64,000 nt of DNA, taken from positions 452,501-516,500 of the forward strand of contig NZ_AP018712.1 of the NCBI RefSeq assembly GCF_014701195.1, read 5' to 3'. Within the stretch, counting starts at the first letter, position 1, and each line of letters starts with the position of its first letter. The position numbers were made by a program, and so were the translations under genes. The notes beneath the pieces are model-generated. The model was not told where the DNA came from. It did no database searches and worked only from the letters and a program-made list of their open reading frames with translations. The stretch is from Tepiditoga spiralis (GTDB lineage: Bacteria; Thermotogota; Thermotogae; Petrotogales; Petrotogaceae). Shown here one piece after another: positions 11,979 to 62,145 of the stretch.

Positions 11979-14354
11979 TTATATAGAAAAAAATTGTTTT
12001 GCTATTTCAACAGCTTTTTGTGCATCTTTAACATAATAATCTGCTTTTATCATATCAGTATATTTTTGATTTAAGACTGCTCCTCCAACCATAATTTTAC
12101 AATCTAATTTATTCTTACGTATTTCTTTAATTATATATTCCATACTTTTAACTGTTGTTGTCATCAAAGCGCTTAGTCCAACTAATCTTATATTTTCTTT
12201 TTTTATACTTTCTATTATTTTTTGTGCTGGTACATCTTTACCTAAATCTACTATTTCGTATCCATAGTTTTCAAGTATAACTTTTACTATATTTTTTCCT
12301 ATATCATGAACATCACCTTGAACAGTTGCCAAAAGTATTTTTTTTCCAACTTTTTTTTCTTCTCCTGACTTTAATATTATTTCTTTTATTAATTCAAATG
12401 ATTTTTTTACAGTTTCTGCAGATCTTATAAGTTGAGGTAAAAATATTTCTTCTTTTTCATATCGTTGTCCAACTATATCCAATGCTGGAATTAAAAATTC
12501 ATTTATTATTTCCATAGATTTTTTTTCTTTTAGCAAAATTTTTGTTGCTTCAATTGCTTCATCTTTTAAACCATCAATTATTATTTGTTTTAAATCTATT
12601 TCTTTTTGCATTTTAATTTCTTTATTTAATTTTTTTTGTATAACTTTTGAATACTTTTCTATAAATTTCTCTGATTGTTTATCTTGATTTGATAAAACTT
12701 TATATGAATAGATTATTTCTTTTATTTCTTCTTTTTTAGGATTTAATATTGGTGCATCAACTCCAGCTGTTAAAGCCATTGCTAAAAATGTTTTATTTAA
12801 TATGCTTCTATTTGGAAGGCCAAAAGATACATTACTTATTCCCAAAGTTGTTTTAACATTAAATTTTTCTTTAACCATTCTAACAGCTTTTATTGTTTCC
12901 ATAACATCTTCTTGTTGTGCTGATGCTGTTAAAACTAAACAATCTATCAATATATTTTTTTTATGTATTCCATATTTTTGAGCTGTTTTTATAATTTTTT
13001 CTGCAACTTCAACTCTTTCTTCTGCCTTTTTAGGTATCCCTCTTTCATCTAAGGTCAGTCCTACTACACATGCTCCATACTTTTTTACTATTGGAAATAT
13101 TTTTTCCATACTTTCTTTTTTACCATTTACAGAGTTTATTAATGGTTTACCATTATAAATTCTAACTGCATGTTCTATTACTTTTGGATCTGAACTATCA
13201 ATTTGAAGTGGTAATCCCATTACTGATTGTATTTCTTTTATAACTTTTATCATAATTTCTTCTTCGTTTATTTCGGGAAGTCCCACATTAACATCTAAAA
13301 TATCTGCGCCTTCTTCTTTTTGATTTATTGCTTCTTTTATTATATAATCTAAGTTTTTATCTCTTAATGCTTGTTTAAACTTCTTTTTTCCTGTTGGATT
13401 TATTCTTTCCCCTATTATTTTTAAAGTTTCACCTATCTTTACAGTTTTTGAATATGATGAAACTGCCGTGAATTCTTTTTCTTTTATTTTTTTTGGTTTT
13501 ACTGTTTTTAATTCTTTTGTCATTAATTTTATAAATCTTTCATCTGTACCACAACATCCTCCTATTATCTGTGCACCCATTTCAACTATTTTTTTCATGT
13601 GAGTTAAAAATTCTTTTGGAGTAATCTTATACTTTGTTTCACCATTTTCTATTTCTGGTAATCCAGCATTTGGTTGAACCATAACAGGTATTGATGAATA
13701 TTTTATAATTTTTTCTACTATTGGTATAGCTTCTTTTGGTCCAACAGAACAGTTTAATCCTAGTGCATCTACATCAAGTCCTTCTAAAACATTTACCATT
13801 GTCAATGGATCTGTTCCAGTAAATGTTCTTCCATCTTCTGTAAAAGTCATTGTACAAAAAACAGGTAATTTTGTATTTTCTTTTGCAGCAAGTATTGCTG
13901 CTTTTGCTTCATATAAATCTGATATTGTTTCTATTAAAATTAAGTCTGCACCTGCTTTTTCTCCAGCTATCATTTGTCTTTTAAACATATTATATGCTTC
14001 TTCAAACTTCAATGTTCCTGATGGTTCTAATAATCTTCCTATTGGTCCTATATCAAGTGCAACATATTGTACTCCAGTTGCACTCTTTGCTATTTTTACA
14101 GCTGATTCAACAATTTCTTCAACAGTATACTCGGTTCTTTTTAATTTAAATTCACTTGCACCAAAAGTATTTGTTGTTATTATTTGTGCACCTGACCTTA
14201 TATATAGTTCATGTATTTCTTTTATAATATTTGGGTTTGTAATATTTAATGTTTCTGGTAATGTTCCAAGTTTTAATCCTTTTTTTTGTAATTGCGTACC
14301 CATTGCACCATCAAAAAATAAAAGCTCATTTTTTATTCTTTCTTTAATATGCAC
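11979..14354 (-). CDS. metH: Cobalamin-dependent methionine synthase (MetH) lacking the reactivation domain
   Basis: Transfers the methyl group of 5-methyltetrahydrofolate to homocysteine through enzyme-bound cobalamin. Domains in order: homocysteine/zinc-binding barrel (1 to about 290, with the zinc cysteines in IGGCCGT near 266), pterin-binding barrel (about 310-560), B12 cap and Rossmann domain (about 585 to end) with the cobalt-ligand motif DVHDIGKN near 680. The fourth, AdoMet-binding reactivation domain of E. coli MetH is missing and is supplied by the preceding gene, as in T. maritima. GTG at 14354 is chosen because AAAGGGTGG lies a proper distance ahead; GTG at 14363 overlaps that SD. 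It overlaps the upstream gene by 11 nt. Confidence 0.93.
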   Translation of the reverse strand: MHIKERIKNELLFFDGAMGTQLQKKGLKLGTLPETLNITNPNIIKEIHELYIRSGAQIITTNTFGASEFKLKRTEYTVEEIVESAVKIAKSATGVQYVALDIGPIGRLLEPSGTLKFEEAYNMFKRQMIAGEKAGADLILIETISDLYEAKAAILAAKENTKLPVFCTMTFTEDGRTFTGTDPLTMVNVLEGLDVDALGLNCSVGPKEAIPIVEKIIKYSSIPVMVQPNAGLPEIENGETKYKITPKEFLTHMKKIVEMGAQIIGGCCGTDERFIKLMTKELKTVKPKKIKEKEFTAVSSYSKTVKIGETLKIIGERINPTGKKKFKQALRDKNLDYIIKEAINQKEEGADILDVNVGLPEINEEEIMIKVIKEIQSVMGLPLQIDSSDPKVIEHAVRIYNGKPLINSVNGKKESMEKIFPIVKKYGACVVGLTLDERGIPKKAEERVEVAEKIIKTAQKYGIHKKNILIDCLVLTASAQQEDVMETIKAVRMVKEKFNVKTTLGISNVSFGLPNRSILNKTFLAMALTAGVDAPILNPKKEEIKEIIYSYKVLSNQDKQSEKFIEKYSKVIQKKLNKEIKMQKEIDLKQIIIDGLKDEAIEATKILLKEKKSMEIINEFLIPALDIVGQRYEKEEIFLPQLIRSAETVKKSFELIKEIILKSGEEKKVGKKILLATVQGDVHDIGKNIVKVILENYGYEIVDLGKDVPAQKIIESIKKENIRLVGLSALMTTTVKSMEYIIKEIRKNKLDCKIMVGGAVLNQKYTDMIKADYYVKDAQKAVEIAKQFFSI

Positions 14355-14997
14355 ATGAACCACCCTTTCTTTTAAAACTACAATTTAACTTACATCCATC
14401 GCAACCATATATATTTGCAACACTATTTTCTTTTTGTAATCCAATAATTGCAGTTACTGATTTTTCAGGTATTAATACATTATTTTCTGTAACATCCAAT
14501 CCTATTTTTTTCCTTGTATCTAAAATATTTACTATTTCTTGTTGAACTTCTATTGAAAAATCTCCATATCCTGGACTGTATCTTGGAGTTATATAATATG
14601 GATACATTTCTTTTTCTATAATACTTTGAACTTCATCACAACTTTTTTCAACATAAACAGAAGCACAAGCATTAAAAATAACTGCTTTAGTCATATCTTT
14701 TAATTGATAATAACGTAGTTTTTTATCAATTTCAAATCCTATAGTAACTGCCATAATTGCACATTTGTCTGATGCTCTTAAATGAGTTTTTATATTTTCA
14801 CCTTTTAATAAAACCTCTGTTCCACTTAATAGTATTCCTTCTTTTAATTTTTCTAAATCAAAAATTTTAAATGTATATCTGTAAATAGAAGTGTTTTTTA
14901 CTTCTTCAATACTTTTATCTATTAAAAAATCTAATTTATTATCTATTTTTTGATTTTTGTACCCTAAATACCTTAACACTTCTTTTTTAAACTCCAA
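14344..14997 (-). CDS. Methionine synthase reactivation protein (TM0269-like)
   Basis: A 217-residue protein resembling the free-standing reactivation module of Thermotoga methionine synthase. That module uses AdoMet to remethylate cobalamin oxidised to the inactive Co(II) state. The central TPRYSPGYGDFSIEVQQEI corresponds to the RxxPGYxxxP-like AdoMet-binding region of the MetH activation domain. The tail CDGCKLNCSFKRKGGSCAY is cysteine-rich (four Cys), suggesting a small metal site in addition to the domain. It sits directly between metF and metH, overlapping metH, which fits a dedicated partner. Confidence 0.85.
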   Translation of the reverse strand: MEFKKEVLRYLGYKNQKIDNKLDFLIDKSIEEVKNTSIYRYTFKIFDLEKLKEGILLSGTEVLLKGENIKTHLRASDKCAIMAVTIGFEIDKKLRYYQLKDMTKAVIFNACASVYVEKSCDEVQSIIEKEMYPYYITPRYSPGYGDFSIEVQQEIVNILDTRKKIGLDVTENNVLIPEKSVTAIIGLQKENSVANIYGCDGCKLNCSFKRKGGSCAY

Positions 14998-19169: not shown

Positions 19170-19179
19170 AATATTTTTT

Positions 19180-19279
19180 ATTATCTTTCATTTCAAATGA
19201 AATGCTGGATTTAGCACCACACAAAAATTGCAGGTTGCTGAAAGGTCATAGGGCCAGTCCCTCACTTTCTCTTGATAAT
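19180..19279 (-). ncRNA. SAM-I riboswitch (S box)
   Basis: The minus strand reads ATTATCAAGAGAAAGTGAGG, then GACTGGCCCTATGA, CAGCAACCTGCA, TGTGTGGTGCTAAATCCAGC and GATAAT. These are the conserved S-box elements: P1 (ATTATC/GATAAT), the kink-turn GAGGGACTGGC...ATGA, AGCAACC, and GGTGCTAA-TCC in P3. SAM binding to this class favours the downstream terminator. Everything from lysC to metH lies downstream. Confidence 0.95.
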
Positions 19280-19296
19280 TTTATTTAATTTTCAAA

Positions 19297-59145: not shown

Positions 59146-60166
59146 TATGGAATATACCTTAAACTATTTAAAAGAAATAATGAAAGTACATAGTCCATCT
59201 GGAGATACAGAAAAAGGCATAAAAAATGTAGAAGAAGAGTTTGATAAACTTAAAATATCTCATAAAAGAACTAAAAAAGGGGCTATTATAGCAACAATAA
59301 AAGGAAAAGATGATGAACATCATAAAACTATATCAGCTCATATAGATACACTTGGAGCCATGGTTAAAGAAATAAAAAATAACGGAAGATTAAAAATGGC
59401 GCAAATAGGAGGTTTTTCTTGGACTTCTGTTGAAGGAGAAAATGTTATAGTAAAAACATTAAATGGAGAAGAATATACAGGAACAATTTTATTTGATAAA
59501 CAATCTGTACATATACATGGAATGATTCCTCGTGAAACAATTAGATCTGATGAAAATATGGAAATAAGATTAGATGAAGACGTAAAAAATAAAGATGACG
59601 TTTTAAAATTAGGAATTAATGTTGGAGACTTTGTTTACTGCGAAACAAGAACTACTATTACAAAAAATGGTTATATAAAATCAAGATATTTAGATGATAA
59701 AGCCGCCGTTGCAATAATTATGGGCATTTGTAAGTATATTAAGGATAATAATATAGAACCAAAATATACAACTCACTTTTTTATAAGTAATTATGAAGAA
59801 GTTGGTCATGGAATATCTGCTATTCCAGAAAAAACTGATGAATTTATTGCAATAGACATAGGAACGGTTGGACTCGGTCAAAACTCTGATGAATTTTCTG
59901 TTTGTATTTCAGCAAGAGATACATCGGGACCTTATGACTTTTCATTTAGAAAAAAATTACAAAAAATATGTGAAAAAAACAATATACAATATAAAGTAGA
60001 CATGTATAATAGATATGGTTCTGATGCAAGCAAACTAGTTCATCAAGGTGTTGATGTAAATTATGCACTCCTTGGGCCTGGTGTAGATGCTACACATCAT
60101 TATGAAAGAACTCATATAAAATCTTTAGATAATACTGCTAAACTCTTATTAAACTATATCGTTTAA
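59135..60166 (+). CDS. M42-family aminopeptidase
   Basis: A 343-residue cocatalytic zinc peptidase (glutamyl aminopeptidase/FrvX group). Ligands and catalytic residues visible: HIDTLGAMV, YLDDKAAVAI, NYEEVGHGI (catalytic Glu pair), ISARDTSGP and THHYERTH. GTG 59135 is taken as the start because GGAGG (59122-59126) lies 8 nt ahead and the ORF upstream is inside the kinase gene. It overlaps the kinase by 11 nt, so it is probably in the same transcript. Confidence 0.93.
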   Translation: MKIDMEYTLNYLKEIMKVHSPSGDTEKGIKNVEEEFDKLKISHKRTKKGAIIATIKGKDDEHHKTISAHIDTLGAMVKEIKNNGRLKMAQIGGFSWTSVEGENVIVKTLNGEEYTGTILFDKQSVHIHGMIPRETIRSDENMEIRLDEDVKNKDDVLKLGINVGDFVYCETRTTITKNGYIKSRYLDDKAAVAIIMGICKYIKDNNIEPKYTTHFFISNYEEVGHGISAIPEKTDEFIAIDIGTVGLGQNSDEFSVCISARDTSGPYDFSFRKKLQKICEKNNIQYKVDMYNRYGSDASKLVHQGVDVNYALLGPGVDATHHYERTHIKSLDNTAKLLLNYIV

Positions 60167-60282
60167 TTTAAATTAGAAGGTTTACACGTAATATAATCTT
60201 AGCAAATTAAAAATTATATAAATTTTAAAATAATTCATCTCATTTTATTACATGTATATATTACAAATAAATAATAAATTTA

Positions 60283-60425
60283 GAATTAAGGCATTTAGGA
60301 ATTTGGTGAAAATCCAAAACGGTCCAGCCACCGTAACTGAGAACGAACACTACAAAATACCACTGAGAAATCGGGAAGGTGTAGTTAGTAGAATGATACA
60401 GAAGTCGGGAGACCTGTCTTAATTC
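60283..60425 (+). ncRNA. Cobalamin riboswitch
   Basis: Conserved elements in order: P1 GAATTAAG (60283-60290) with CTTAATTC (60418-60425); GGTGAAAATCC; CGGTCCAGCCACCGTAACTG; CCACTG; GGGAAGG; ATGATAC; and the B12 box AGTCGGGAGACCTGTC. This is the adenosyl-/methylcobalamin aptamer family. It controls the YitT-family gene downstream. Confidence 0.93.
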
Positions 60426-60433
60426 AATTTTTA

Positions 60434-60466
60434 TCTCAATTTCTTGGTTTGAATTGAGAAAAATTT
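60434..60466 (+). terminator. Expression platform of the cobalamin riboswitch
   Basis: TCTCAATT (60434-60441) and AATTGAGA (60452-60459) form a hairpin, then AAAATTTTT. AATTCAA at 60421-60427 (3' strand of P1) can pair with TTGAATT in the hairpin's 3' side, so P1 formation and the alternative fold exclude each other. Weak T run; terminator or SD-access control. Confidence 0.6.
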
Positions 60467-60483
60467 TTATATGGAGGTATATT

Positions 60484-61341
60484 ATGAAAAAAATTATTTT
60501 TAAAGAGTATTTTTTTGCAACTATTGGAGCTTTATTAACTGCATTTGGACTTGCTGTATTCTTAATGCCACATGATATAGCTTGTGGTGGAGCAAATGGT
60601 CTTGCAATTGTTTTAAACAGTGTAATTCATGTTCCAGTTGGTATATTGATGTATGGTGTCAATATTATTCTATTTATCCTTTCATTTATTTTTATAGGAA
60701 AAGAGTTTGGAGCAAAAAGTATATATTGTACTTTTATTCTTAACTTTTTTGTTGATATGTTTGATAGAATACTCCCTATACCAAAATACACTGGAAATGA
60801 TATGTTTTTAGCTGTATTTTTTGGAGTTGTTATATCTGCTGCAGGTATGGCAATTACTTTTTCACAAAATGCATCAACAGGTGGAACTGACATAATTGCT
60901 AAAATATTTAATAAATATTTTGGACTTTCACTTGGTATAGGTCTTTTAATGTCTGATTTAATTATAGGTCTTCTTGCAGGAATTGCATATGATCCAACAG
61001 TTGGAATGTATTCTATTGTATCAGTTATTATAAATGGCTTAACAGTTGATTTCATTATTAGAGGAATAACAACAGATGTTACAATGATGATAATATCTGA
61101 AAAGAAAAAAGAAATATTAGAATATATCTTAAAAGATTTAGATAGAGGTGCATCACTTATAAACGCTGAAGGAGCTTATTCTGGACAAAAAAAACAATTT
61201 ATATATGTAGCTTTAAGTAGAAGAGAAAAAAATGAAATGATACATAAAATTCAATCGATTGATCCAGATGCTTTCATAACTGTACAACCAATTTCTACGG
61301 TAATTGGATATGGTTTTAAAAACTTCAAACAAGTAATATAA
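60484..61341 (+). CDS. YitT-family membrane protein (DUF161 + DUF2179)
   Basis: A 285-residue protein with about five to six membrane segments (first ~200 residues; family marks LTAFGLAVFLMPHDIACGGANG, NASTGGTDIIAKI) and a C-terminal cytosolic DUF2179 domain (SLINAEGAYSGQKKQFIYVALSRRE). The function of YitT proteins is unknown. The cobalamin riboswitch upstream ties this one to vitamin B12 supply, e.g. uptake of B12 or a precursor, or replacing a B12 need. SD GGAGG stands 7 nt before the ATG at 60484. Confidence 0.9.
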   Translation: MKKIIFKEYFFATIGALLTAFGLAVFLMPHDIACGGANGLAIVLNSVIHVPVGILMYGVNIILFILSFIFIGKEFGAKSIYCTFILNFFVDMFDRILPIPKYTGNDMFLAVFFGVVISAAGMAITFSQNASTGGTDIIAKIFNKYFGLSLGIGLLMSDLIIGLLAGIAYDPTVGMYSIVSVIINGLTVDFIIRGITTDVTMMIISEKKKEILEYILKDLDRGASLINAEGAYSGQKKQFIYVALSRREKNEMIHKIQSIDPDAFITVQPISTVIGYGFKNFKQVI

Positions 61342-61370
61342 TTTTTTAATTTTTATCTTATACGACAAAA

Positions 61371-61408
61371 ATATGCAAATTTGATAAATCAATTTGCATA
61401 TTTTTTTA
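61371..61408 (+). terminator. Terminator after the YitT gene
   Basis: ATATGCAAATTTGAT (61371-61385) pairs with ATCAATTTGCATAT (61388-61401) with one bulge, then a T run. Confidence 0.8.
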
Positions 61409-61437: not shown

Positions 61438-61480
61438 TTGACAAAAAATTAAAAAAATGATATCATTCACTTAGTGAATG
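61438..61480 (+). promoter_or_regulatory. Promoter and operator of the polysaccharide operon
   Basis: TTGACA (61438-61443), 17 nt, TATCAT (61461-61466): near-consensus. A perfect palindrome CATTCACTTAGTGAATG (61464-61480) overlaps the -10 and the start site, a repressor-operator layout. The wHTH protein encoded next is the obvious candidate. Confidence 0.8.
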
Positions 61481-61497: not shown

Positions 61498-62145
61498 ATG
61501 TTTAAATTTGAAGAATATTCTTTTTTTAATCCATCACCAAACTTTAGAGAAATGGTTCTTTTACAAATAATATCAAAGGATTCTAATGTATCTCAAGAAA
61601 TACTTGCAAAAAATGCTGGAATAGCGCCGTCAATGGTAAATAGATACTTAAAAGAGTTTGAAGAAAAAAAGTACATAAACAAAGTTGGAAAAACGAGAAG
61701 AAGTATGCAGTATAAATTGACTGAAGATGGAATAAAGAGATTACAGTTTTTAATAGTTTCTTATACCAGCGAAGTATCGAAGATGTATGCAGAAACAAAA
61801 ATATCTTTTGATGGTGTTTTATATCAAATAAAAAATAAATCTTTAAAGAACATATATTTATACGGTGCAGGTGTTGTTGGAGGAATACTTTTAAAAGTTT
61901 TAAATAGTGAAAACATAGAAATAAAAGGCTTTATAGATGAATCACCATTAAAAATAGGAGAAAAACTTTACAATATAAAAATTTTTTCTCCAGAATCAAT
62001 GAAAAATAAAAATTATGATGCAATTATAATAGCTTCATTTAGACATTATGAAGAAATATTGAAAAAAGCAAAAAACTTTGGATTAAAAAATATACAAATT
62101 TTTAAAATAGACAATGAAGGAAAGGTTTCATTGAAGGAGGCTTAA
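61498..62145 (+). CDS. Winged-helix regulator fused to a Rossmann-like domain
   Basis: A 215-residue protein. Residues about 15-80 are a MarR/Lrp-like winged helix (VSQEILAKNAGIAPSMVNRYLKEFEEKKYI). Residues about 115-210 start YLYGAGVVGGILLKVL, an NAD-type G-x-G-x-x-G, and continue GFIDESPLKIGEKLYNIKI, as in the N-terminal domain of CapD/FlaA1-type sugar-nucleotide enzymes. It heads an operon with sugar-nucleotide genes and probably senses a nucleotide cofactor or sugar nucleotide. SD GAGGTG; 2-nt gap to the aminotransferase. Confidence 0.82.
   Translation: MFKFEEYSFFNPSPNFREMVLLQIISKDSNVSQEILAKNAGIAPSMVNRYLKEFEEKKYINKVGKTRRSMQYKLTEDGIKRLQFLIVSYTSEVSKMYAETKISFDGVLYQIKNKSLKNIYLYGAGVVGGILLKVLNSENIEIKGFIDESPLKIGEKLYNIKIFSPESMKNKNYDAIIIASFRHYEEILKKAKNFGLKNIQIFKIDNEGKVSLKEA

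Follow-up and report, generated by a model that had tools for sequence, protein, structure and literature searches.

The yitT gene of Tepiditoga spiralis stands alone behind a full-length cobalamin riboswitch, and of 103 Thermotogota genomes at least 13 have a YitT gene placed behind such a riboswitch. Regulation of yitT by B12 is well supported, and we infer from the form of the element both that it binds the cofactor and that it switches the gene off in the cell. Considering that the pairing recurs beside succinyl-CoA enzymes, YitT probably helps the cell to get by when a B12-dependent step is missing, and does not serve to import B12. We tentatively propose that it is a short-chain (di)carboxylate transporter, most likely a succinate exporter, working in a bypass under a B12 OFF riboswitch; the transport activity, substrate and direction that we infer for it derive from gene context and predicted structure.

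The features of the locus are listed in Table 1, numbered within the window, that is, the whole stretch of 64,000 nucleotides that was analysed. The initial annotation had described a complete aptamer, with P1, core and B12 box, that leads only to a YitT gene followed by a terminator, and each of these elements was recovered here. The cmscan match spans the full RF00174 model (positions 1-189, gathering score 31.5 bits), the core GAAAATCC is visible in the sequence, and the B12 box reads ACCACTG instead of GCCACTG with its pairing kept. The spacing from the aptamer to the yitT start is 48 nt. Upstream, the nearest gene encodes an M42 peptidase and ends at 60166; downstream, an HTH gene at 61498 has its own promoter-like site (TTGACA-17-TATCAT, at 61438). 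Given this site and the hairpin with a T-run 3' of yitT, which is absent from the output of a consensus terminator scan, the yitT transcript is probably monocistronic and YitT the single target of the switch.

Folding of the leader gave two mutually exclusive pairings, P1 and an antiterminator, both of which use the 3' strand of P1. The 3' arm of the leader hairpin, GAAUUGAG (60451), competes for this strand, and the computed duplexes are nearly equal in energy (-9.5 kcal/mol for P1 with 10-nt strands, -10.0 kcal/mol for the alternative). Being A+T-rich, this hairpin escaped the consensus scan, which needs T right after a G+C-richer stem; clearer leader terminators, each with a T-run, are present in the relatives G012 (-16.8 kcal/mol) and G019 (-12.8 kcal/mol). 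The layout fits the usual one of a transcriptional OFF switch, and this layout, together with the behaviour of most known B12 riboswitches (PMC11575231), points to an OFF direction for yitT. With B12 bound, P1 would form and the leader hairpin could end transcription, leaving yitT off; when B12 is lacking, the 3' strand of P1 would pair with the 3' arm of the hairpin and transcription would continue.

Table 1. Features of the riboswitch-yitT locus, in window coordinates
Feature	Position	Strand	Basis or detail
Cobalamin riboswitch aptamer (RF00174)	60272-60435	+	cmscan of the whole window: 75.8 bits, E 6.9e-17
P1 5' strand, GAAUUAAG	60283-60290	+	pairs with 60418-60425
P1 3' strand, CUUAAUUC	60418-60425	+	alternative partner 60451-60458 (antiterminator)
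Leader hairpin, candidate terminator	60426-60468	+	folding; arms at about 60435-60443 and 60451-60458, then AAAAAUUUUU
Shine-Dalgarno-like GGAGG	60473-60477	+	sequence
yitT	60484-61341	+	ATG at 60484; PF02588 and PF10035; 285 aa
Hairpin with T-run 3' of yitT, probable terminator	61367-61407	+	-13.8 kcal/mol

A search for B12 riboswitches upstream of other yitT genes had been proposed along with the initial annotation, and it brought the pairing back in three YitT lineages. Aptamers were called with cmscan; a regular-expression detector, which found 10 of 12 known cases plus further unverified matches, was dropped. Four of the linked genes stand solo behind the riboswitch, eight belong to sucC-sucD-yitT operons, all of them in family f9, and one to a sucC-sucD-aspT-yitT operon (G035). 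The solo genes, in the window and in G012, G019 and G020, encode the most similar YitT proteins of the window's family (21 genomes) and have the riboswitch 48-116 nt upstream in all four cases. No cobalamin riboswitch lies near the remaining YitT places of these same genomes, and none was found by cmscan at 60 further YitT loci, several of which are cut by contig ends; for the f1 paralogues and roughly twelve YitT genes of f2, gene and riboswitch positions were compared by eye. Outside Thermotogota, 13 YitT loci had no cobalamin riboswitch, and in nine of these 13 genomes, a small sample compared by eye, none of 19 riboswitches is within 30 kb of any of 22 YitT places.

A 105-row YitT tree places the linked genes in clade A (4 rows, SH-aLRT 97), clade B (8 rows, SH-aLRT 99) and a single row C, which sits among unlinked YitT genes. 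The tree comes from a quick search with SH-aLRT support only and has the window row on a long branch; a short row (L032, 223 aa) and a repeat of the window gene (L012) were left out beforehand. Three label changes are needed, and supported branches force three. Three gains of the B12 link would be the simplest reading, although the tree does not tell gain from loss. An accidental copy of the riboswitch before yitT, neutral or with only a local effect, would suit a pairing seen in only at least 13 of the 103 genomes, but it is very improbable in view of the three YitT lineages and of the retention of the element in all four clade A members, in which the proteins of the three relatives are 57-63% identical to that of the window.

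Genes that interconvert succinyl-CoA and succinate accompany the linked yitT. A homologue of the sucC-like protein of T. spiralis (G000) is encoded in 28 of the 103 genomes, and in 25 of these the match begins 44-80 nt after the end of a B12 riboswitch; of the other three, G012 and G032 have the match at the edge of a contig, and G087, where no riboswitch was seen, is also among the 13 genomes without a match to the B12-dependent methylmalonyl-CoA mutase (PF01642). G019 and G020 lack the sucC-like gene and have a B12 riboswitch before a ScpC-type CoA-transferase, which in G020 scores above the curated cut-off for ScpC, a succinyl-CoA:acetate CoA-transferase (715 versus 500 bits). Counting either the sucCD-like pair or the ScpC-type enzyme, all 13 yitT-switch genomes thus hold a set of this kind, and in 12 the riboswitch was seen before it, the contig of G012 ending too early. 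The sucC-like gene is broken by stops in G078 (C1:401764-402707) and G007 (C9:289210-290211), both of which keep the B12 riboswitch.

The place after sucD is taken by an AspT/YidE-type transporter gene in 13 genomes (G000, G005, G006, G008-G011, G032, G077-G080 and G085), by yitT in eight f9 genomes, by both in G035 and by neither in G012, which has a solo yitT, G038, G062 and G087; G007, with a decayed copy, and G033, cut by a contig end, are outside this tally. The AspT-like calls were made by eye from N-terminal sequence, except in G000 and G035, and the proteins of G008, G009, G035 and G077 were used as queries against the AspT-like gene of T. spiralis. YbjL is probably a succinate transporter. 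The AspT/YidE family is described as including the succinate exporter SucE1 (PMC9527358). T. spiralis itself carries an AspT-like gene as well as yitT. Its AspT-like frame (L008:3644-4844) reads full length and has no ATG, GTG or TTG start; a T-run hairpin (-20.5 kcal/mol) separates it from sucD, and in most other genomes the sucD-aspT spacing is tight. The AspT-like gene may be poorly expressed in this genome with a solo yitT. The f9 sucCD operons adjoin lysine-pathway genes, and at four f9 loci (L198, L203, L204 and L209) the B12-controlled sucCD-aspT genes are closely followed by a lysine riboswitch, which precedes the lysine-pathway genes.

Methylmalonyl-CoA mutase is the B12-dependent step at which such a set would act. 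PF01642 is matched in all 13 yitT-switch genomes and in 90 of the 103 overall, and in T. spiralis the genes for both mutase subunits, large and small, form one run with those for MeaB, methylmalonyl-CoA epimerase, a biotin carrier, an MmdD/OadG-like protein and a carboxyltransferase that is close to MmdA. When B12 is lacking, gut and rumen bacteria that use the propionate pathway are blocked in propionate formation and accumulate succinate (PMC10881866, PMC11575231), so the B12-repressed succinyl-CoA enzymes and transporter look like a bypass for an idle mutase. In one of these bacteria, Xylanibacter ruminicola, four cobalamin riboswitches were predicted, none of them close to succinate-pathway genes (PMC11575231). 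In the bypass that we propose for Thermotogota, succinyl-CoA would pass through the mutase towards propionyl-CoA when B12 is present. When it is absent, YitT would be made together with the B12-repressed enzymes (a SucCD-like ligase or ScpC), succinyl-CoA would be cleaved to succinate with a gain of ATP or acetyl-CoA, and the succinate would be exported by YitT; AspT-type proteins would fill this export role in related genomes.

The same bypass might run in the other direction or handle another acid, with YitT importing succinate from which SucCD or ScpC would make succinyl-CoA in place of an inactive mutase, or exporting methylmalonate or propionate that accumulates behind a stalled mutase. 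Its sucCD, ScpC and AspT context would be identical, whichever of succinate, methylmalonate and propionate YitT moves, and the lysine-pathway neighbours and the four lysine riboswitches of f9 speak in its favour. The usual routes that consume succinyl-CoA did not turn up, which speaks against it. A general role in feeding succinyl-CoA into the C4 route to 5-aminolevulinate and corrins was rejected, HemB (PF00490) being matched in 4 of the 103 genomes; all four are among the 28 with a sucC-like gene, and the other 24, T. spiralis included, have no HemB. Supply for methionine through MetA or for lysine through a succinyl-type DapD is less likely: among 12 chosen genomes HTS was found in none, and the acetyl-type DapH was over its cut-off in 10, both of which lower the supply reading, although succinyl-CoA may have other uses. 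Taken together, the HemB, HTS and DapH results tilt weakly to disposal and export over supply and import, and we regard the reversed or other-acid bypass as unlikely.

Succinate export has points against it as well: sucCD is present without an adjacent aspT or yitT in G038, G062 and G087, T. spiralis has both an AspT-like gene and yitT, ECF S-components are the best second-look fold matches of the YitT membrane domain, and the small sample outside Thermotogota gave no link between yitT and B12. Genes of a B12-controlled operon may, moreover, share the signal alone and not a pathway. A different B12-sparing role for YitT might be to supply a B12-independent route with a metal, a nucleotide precursor or an amino acid that it transports; B12 control alone would permit such a role, but it would leave the recurring company of sucCD, ScpC and AspT unexplained, and we give it little credence.

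The initial annotation had taken riboswitch control as strong evidence for a role in B12 or corrinoid supply, or in a function that spares B12. Of these, sparing is favoured by the sucCD operons of nine of the 13 linked genes and by the riboswitch-ScpC arrangement of G019 and G020; for supply the wording was too strong, although a hint of S-component-like fold remains. That YitT imports cobalamin, cobinamide or another corrinoid precursor, perhaps in the manner of an ECF S-component, would accord with the usual control of B12 uptake and synthesis by B12 riboswitches (PMC3766115), and the four solo genes are without direct evidence from operon context. However, btuF lies behind a separate B12 riboswitch in all 11 yitT-switch genomes checked (G066 and G075 were left out), with btuC also seen in 10 and the G035 stretch ending before it, so B12 import by YitT would be redundant, although it might take up a precursor. 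In addition, no cob, cbi or btu gene is found in the operon of any of the 13 linked yitT genes.

The protein itself has the look of a regulated transporter, with a predicted duplicated membrane domain (about residues 1-197) followed by a PII-like DUF2179 domain (about 198-279). Both assignments are over their cut-offs, PF02588 (YitT_membrane) with 193.9 bits against 24.3 (E 2.8e-57) and, after it, PF10035 (DUF2179) with 64.7 bits against 22.8 (E 6.7e-18); the same domain search gave no PF06826 match. A profile comparison of its two halves shows the membrane domain to be one unit present twice (probability 90.5, E 1.4e-6), each copy modelled as a long helix, a short helix that opens with a GG motif and two more helices (mean pLDDT 88). 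The predicted fold of the DUF2179 domain is PII-like, with Z 11.1 to a solved DUF2179 domain (3hlu), which was also the sole match in a profile search of PDB sequences, and Z 10.9 to PstA (83 residues, rmsd 2.6).

With the membrane domain as query, Foldseek returned nothing significant (best E 0.28, to Nramp), and a fold search with the full-length model matched the PII-like domain only. In a second-look fold comparison, ECF S-components made up six of the top seven rows, with Z 6.6 for RibU (113 residues, rmsd 3.5-3.8), 5.2 for ThiT and 4.3 for BioY, values below 8 that may reflect only a common arrangement. This weak resemblance of the modelled domain to vitamin-binding proteins is in line with corrinoid import, but YitT has a clear internal repeat, which is not a known feature of ECF S-components, and no EcfA/EcfT module was found among the three genes examined around yitT. 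All told, corrinoid import by YitT appears improbable.

Six RF00174 matches, that of the window included, were found in the T. spiralis genome. The other five precede a cbi operon with a btu-like set, cobT, a btuFCD operon, the sucC/sucD-like pair with the AspT-like gene, and a HutD-YaiI-aldo/keto reductase group, several of these gene names having been read from sequence by eye. In the last case (L009:10108-12387) the riboswitch scores 105.1 bits and stands before HutD (PF05962), a YaiI/YqxD protein and an aldo/keto-reductase-like gene. The cbi operon (L007:1074-11867) lies behind its B12 riboswitch in a genome with no HemB match, and corrin synthesis from 5-aminolevulinate therefore looks incomplete in T. 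spiralis. The dependence on B12 for MetH asserted in the initial annotation agrees with a match of window positions 11979-14363 (minus strand) to TIGR02082 (metH) that covers positions 2-858 of a profile of length 1182 (E 3.3e-154); this MetH-like protein has 794 aa and scores below the whole-protein cut-off. The MetH-like gene run is downstream of a SAM riboswitch at 19178-19281 (minus strand).

PF02588 is annotated only as uncharacterised; its ties to B12 and to succinyl-CoA enzymes, and its interchange with an AspT-type transporter, now give it a specific, testable substrate class. If the succinate bypass is true, these cells would use B12 sensing to reroute carbon at the step that methylmalonyl-CoA mutase catalyses. 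A bolder version, which we consider rather doubtful, is that YitT proteins are carboxylate exporters gated by their PII-like domain and that in Thermotogota a B12 riboswitch employs them to flip the fermentation end product from propionate to succinate once B12 is exhausted, in a dedicated system assembled three times.

The riboswitch itself belongs to a known family: the window element shares with RF00174 the full-length aptamer, the core and the B12 box, and it has a terminator-like hairpin in the leader before the gene. It differs in its target, YitT, which was not found as a B12-riboswitch target in the literature searched; the term 'yitT' does not occur in the main text of PMC3766115. The sucCD part is already known in Thermosipho, where that portion of the 'SucCoA' cluster is under a B12 riboswitch (PMC6211235, citing Swithers et al. 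2012), as are the sucCD-like genes of the genomes analysed here. In these, YitT is encoded next to the AspT-like gene, in its place, or solo with its own switch, and in G019 and G020 ScpC replaces SucCD. Within the B12-controlled operon YitT takes the position behind sucD that is otherwise held by AspT/YidE proteins (PF06826, including SucE1), to which it is unrelated in sequence. With PII-like proteins (PstA/DarA, SbtB and CutA) its DUF2179 domain has a predicted fold in common, the YitT version being joined to a membrane domain. The window protein shares both PF02588 and PF10035 with the YitT family, and its gene is one of at least 13, among the YitT genes compared in 103 Thermotogota genomes, with a B12 riboswitch upstream. 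The repeated recruitment of YitT into a B12-controlled set, the replacement by ScpC and a concrete hypothesis for the substrate all appear to be new.
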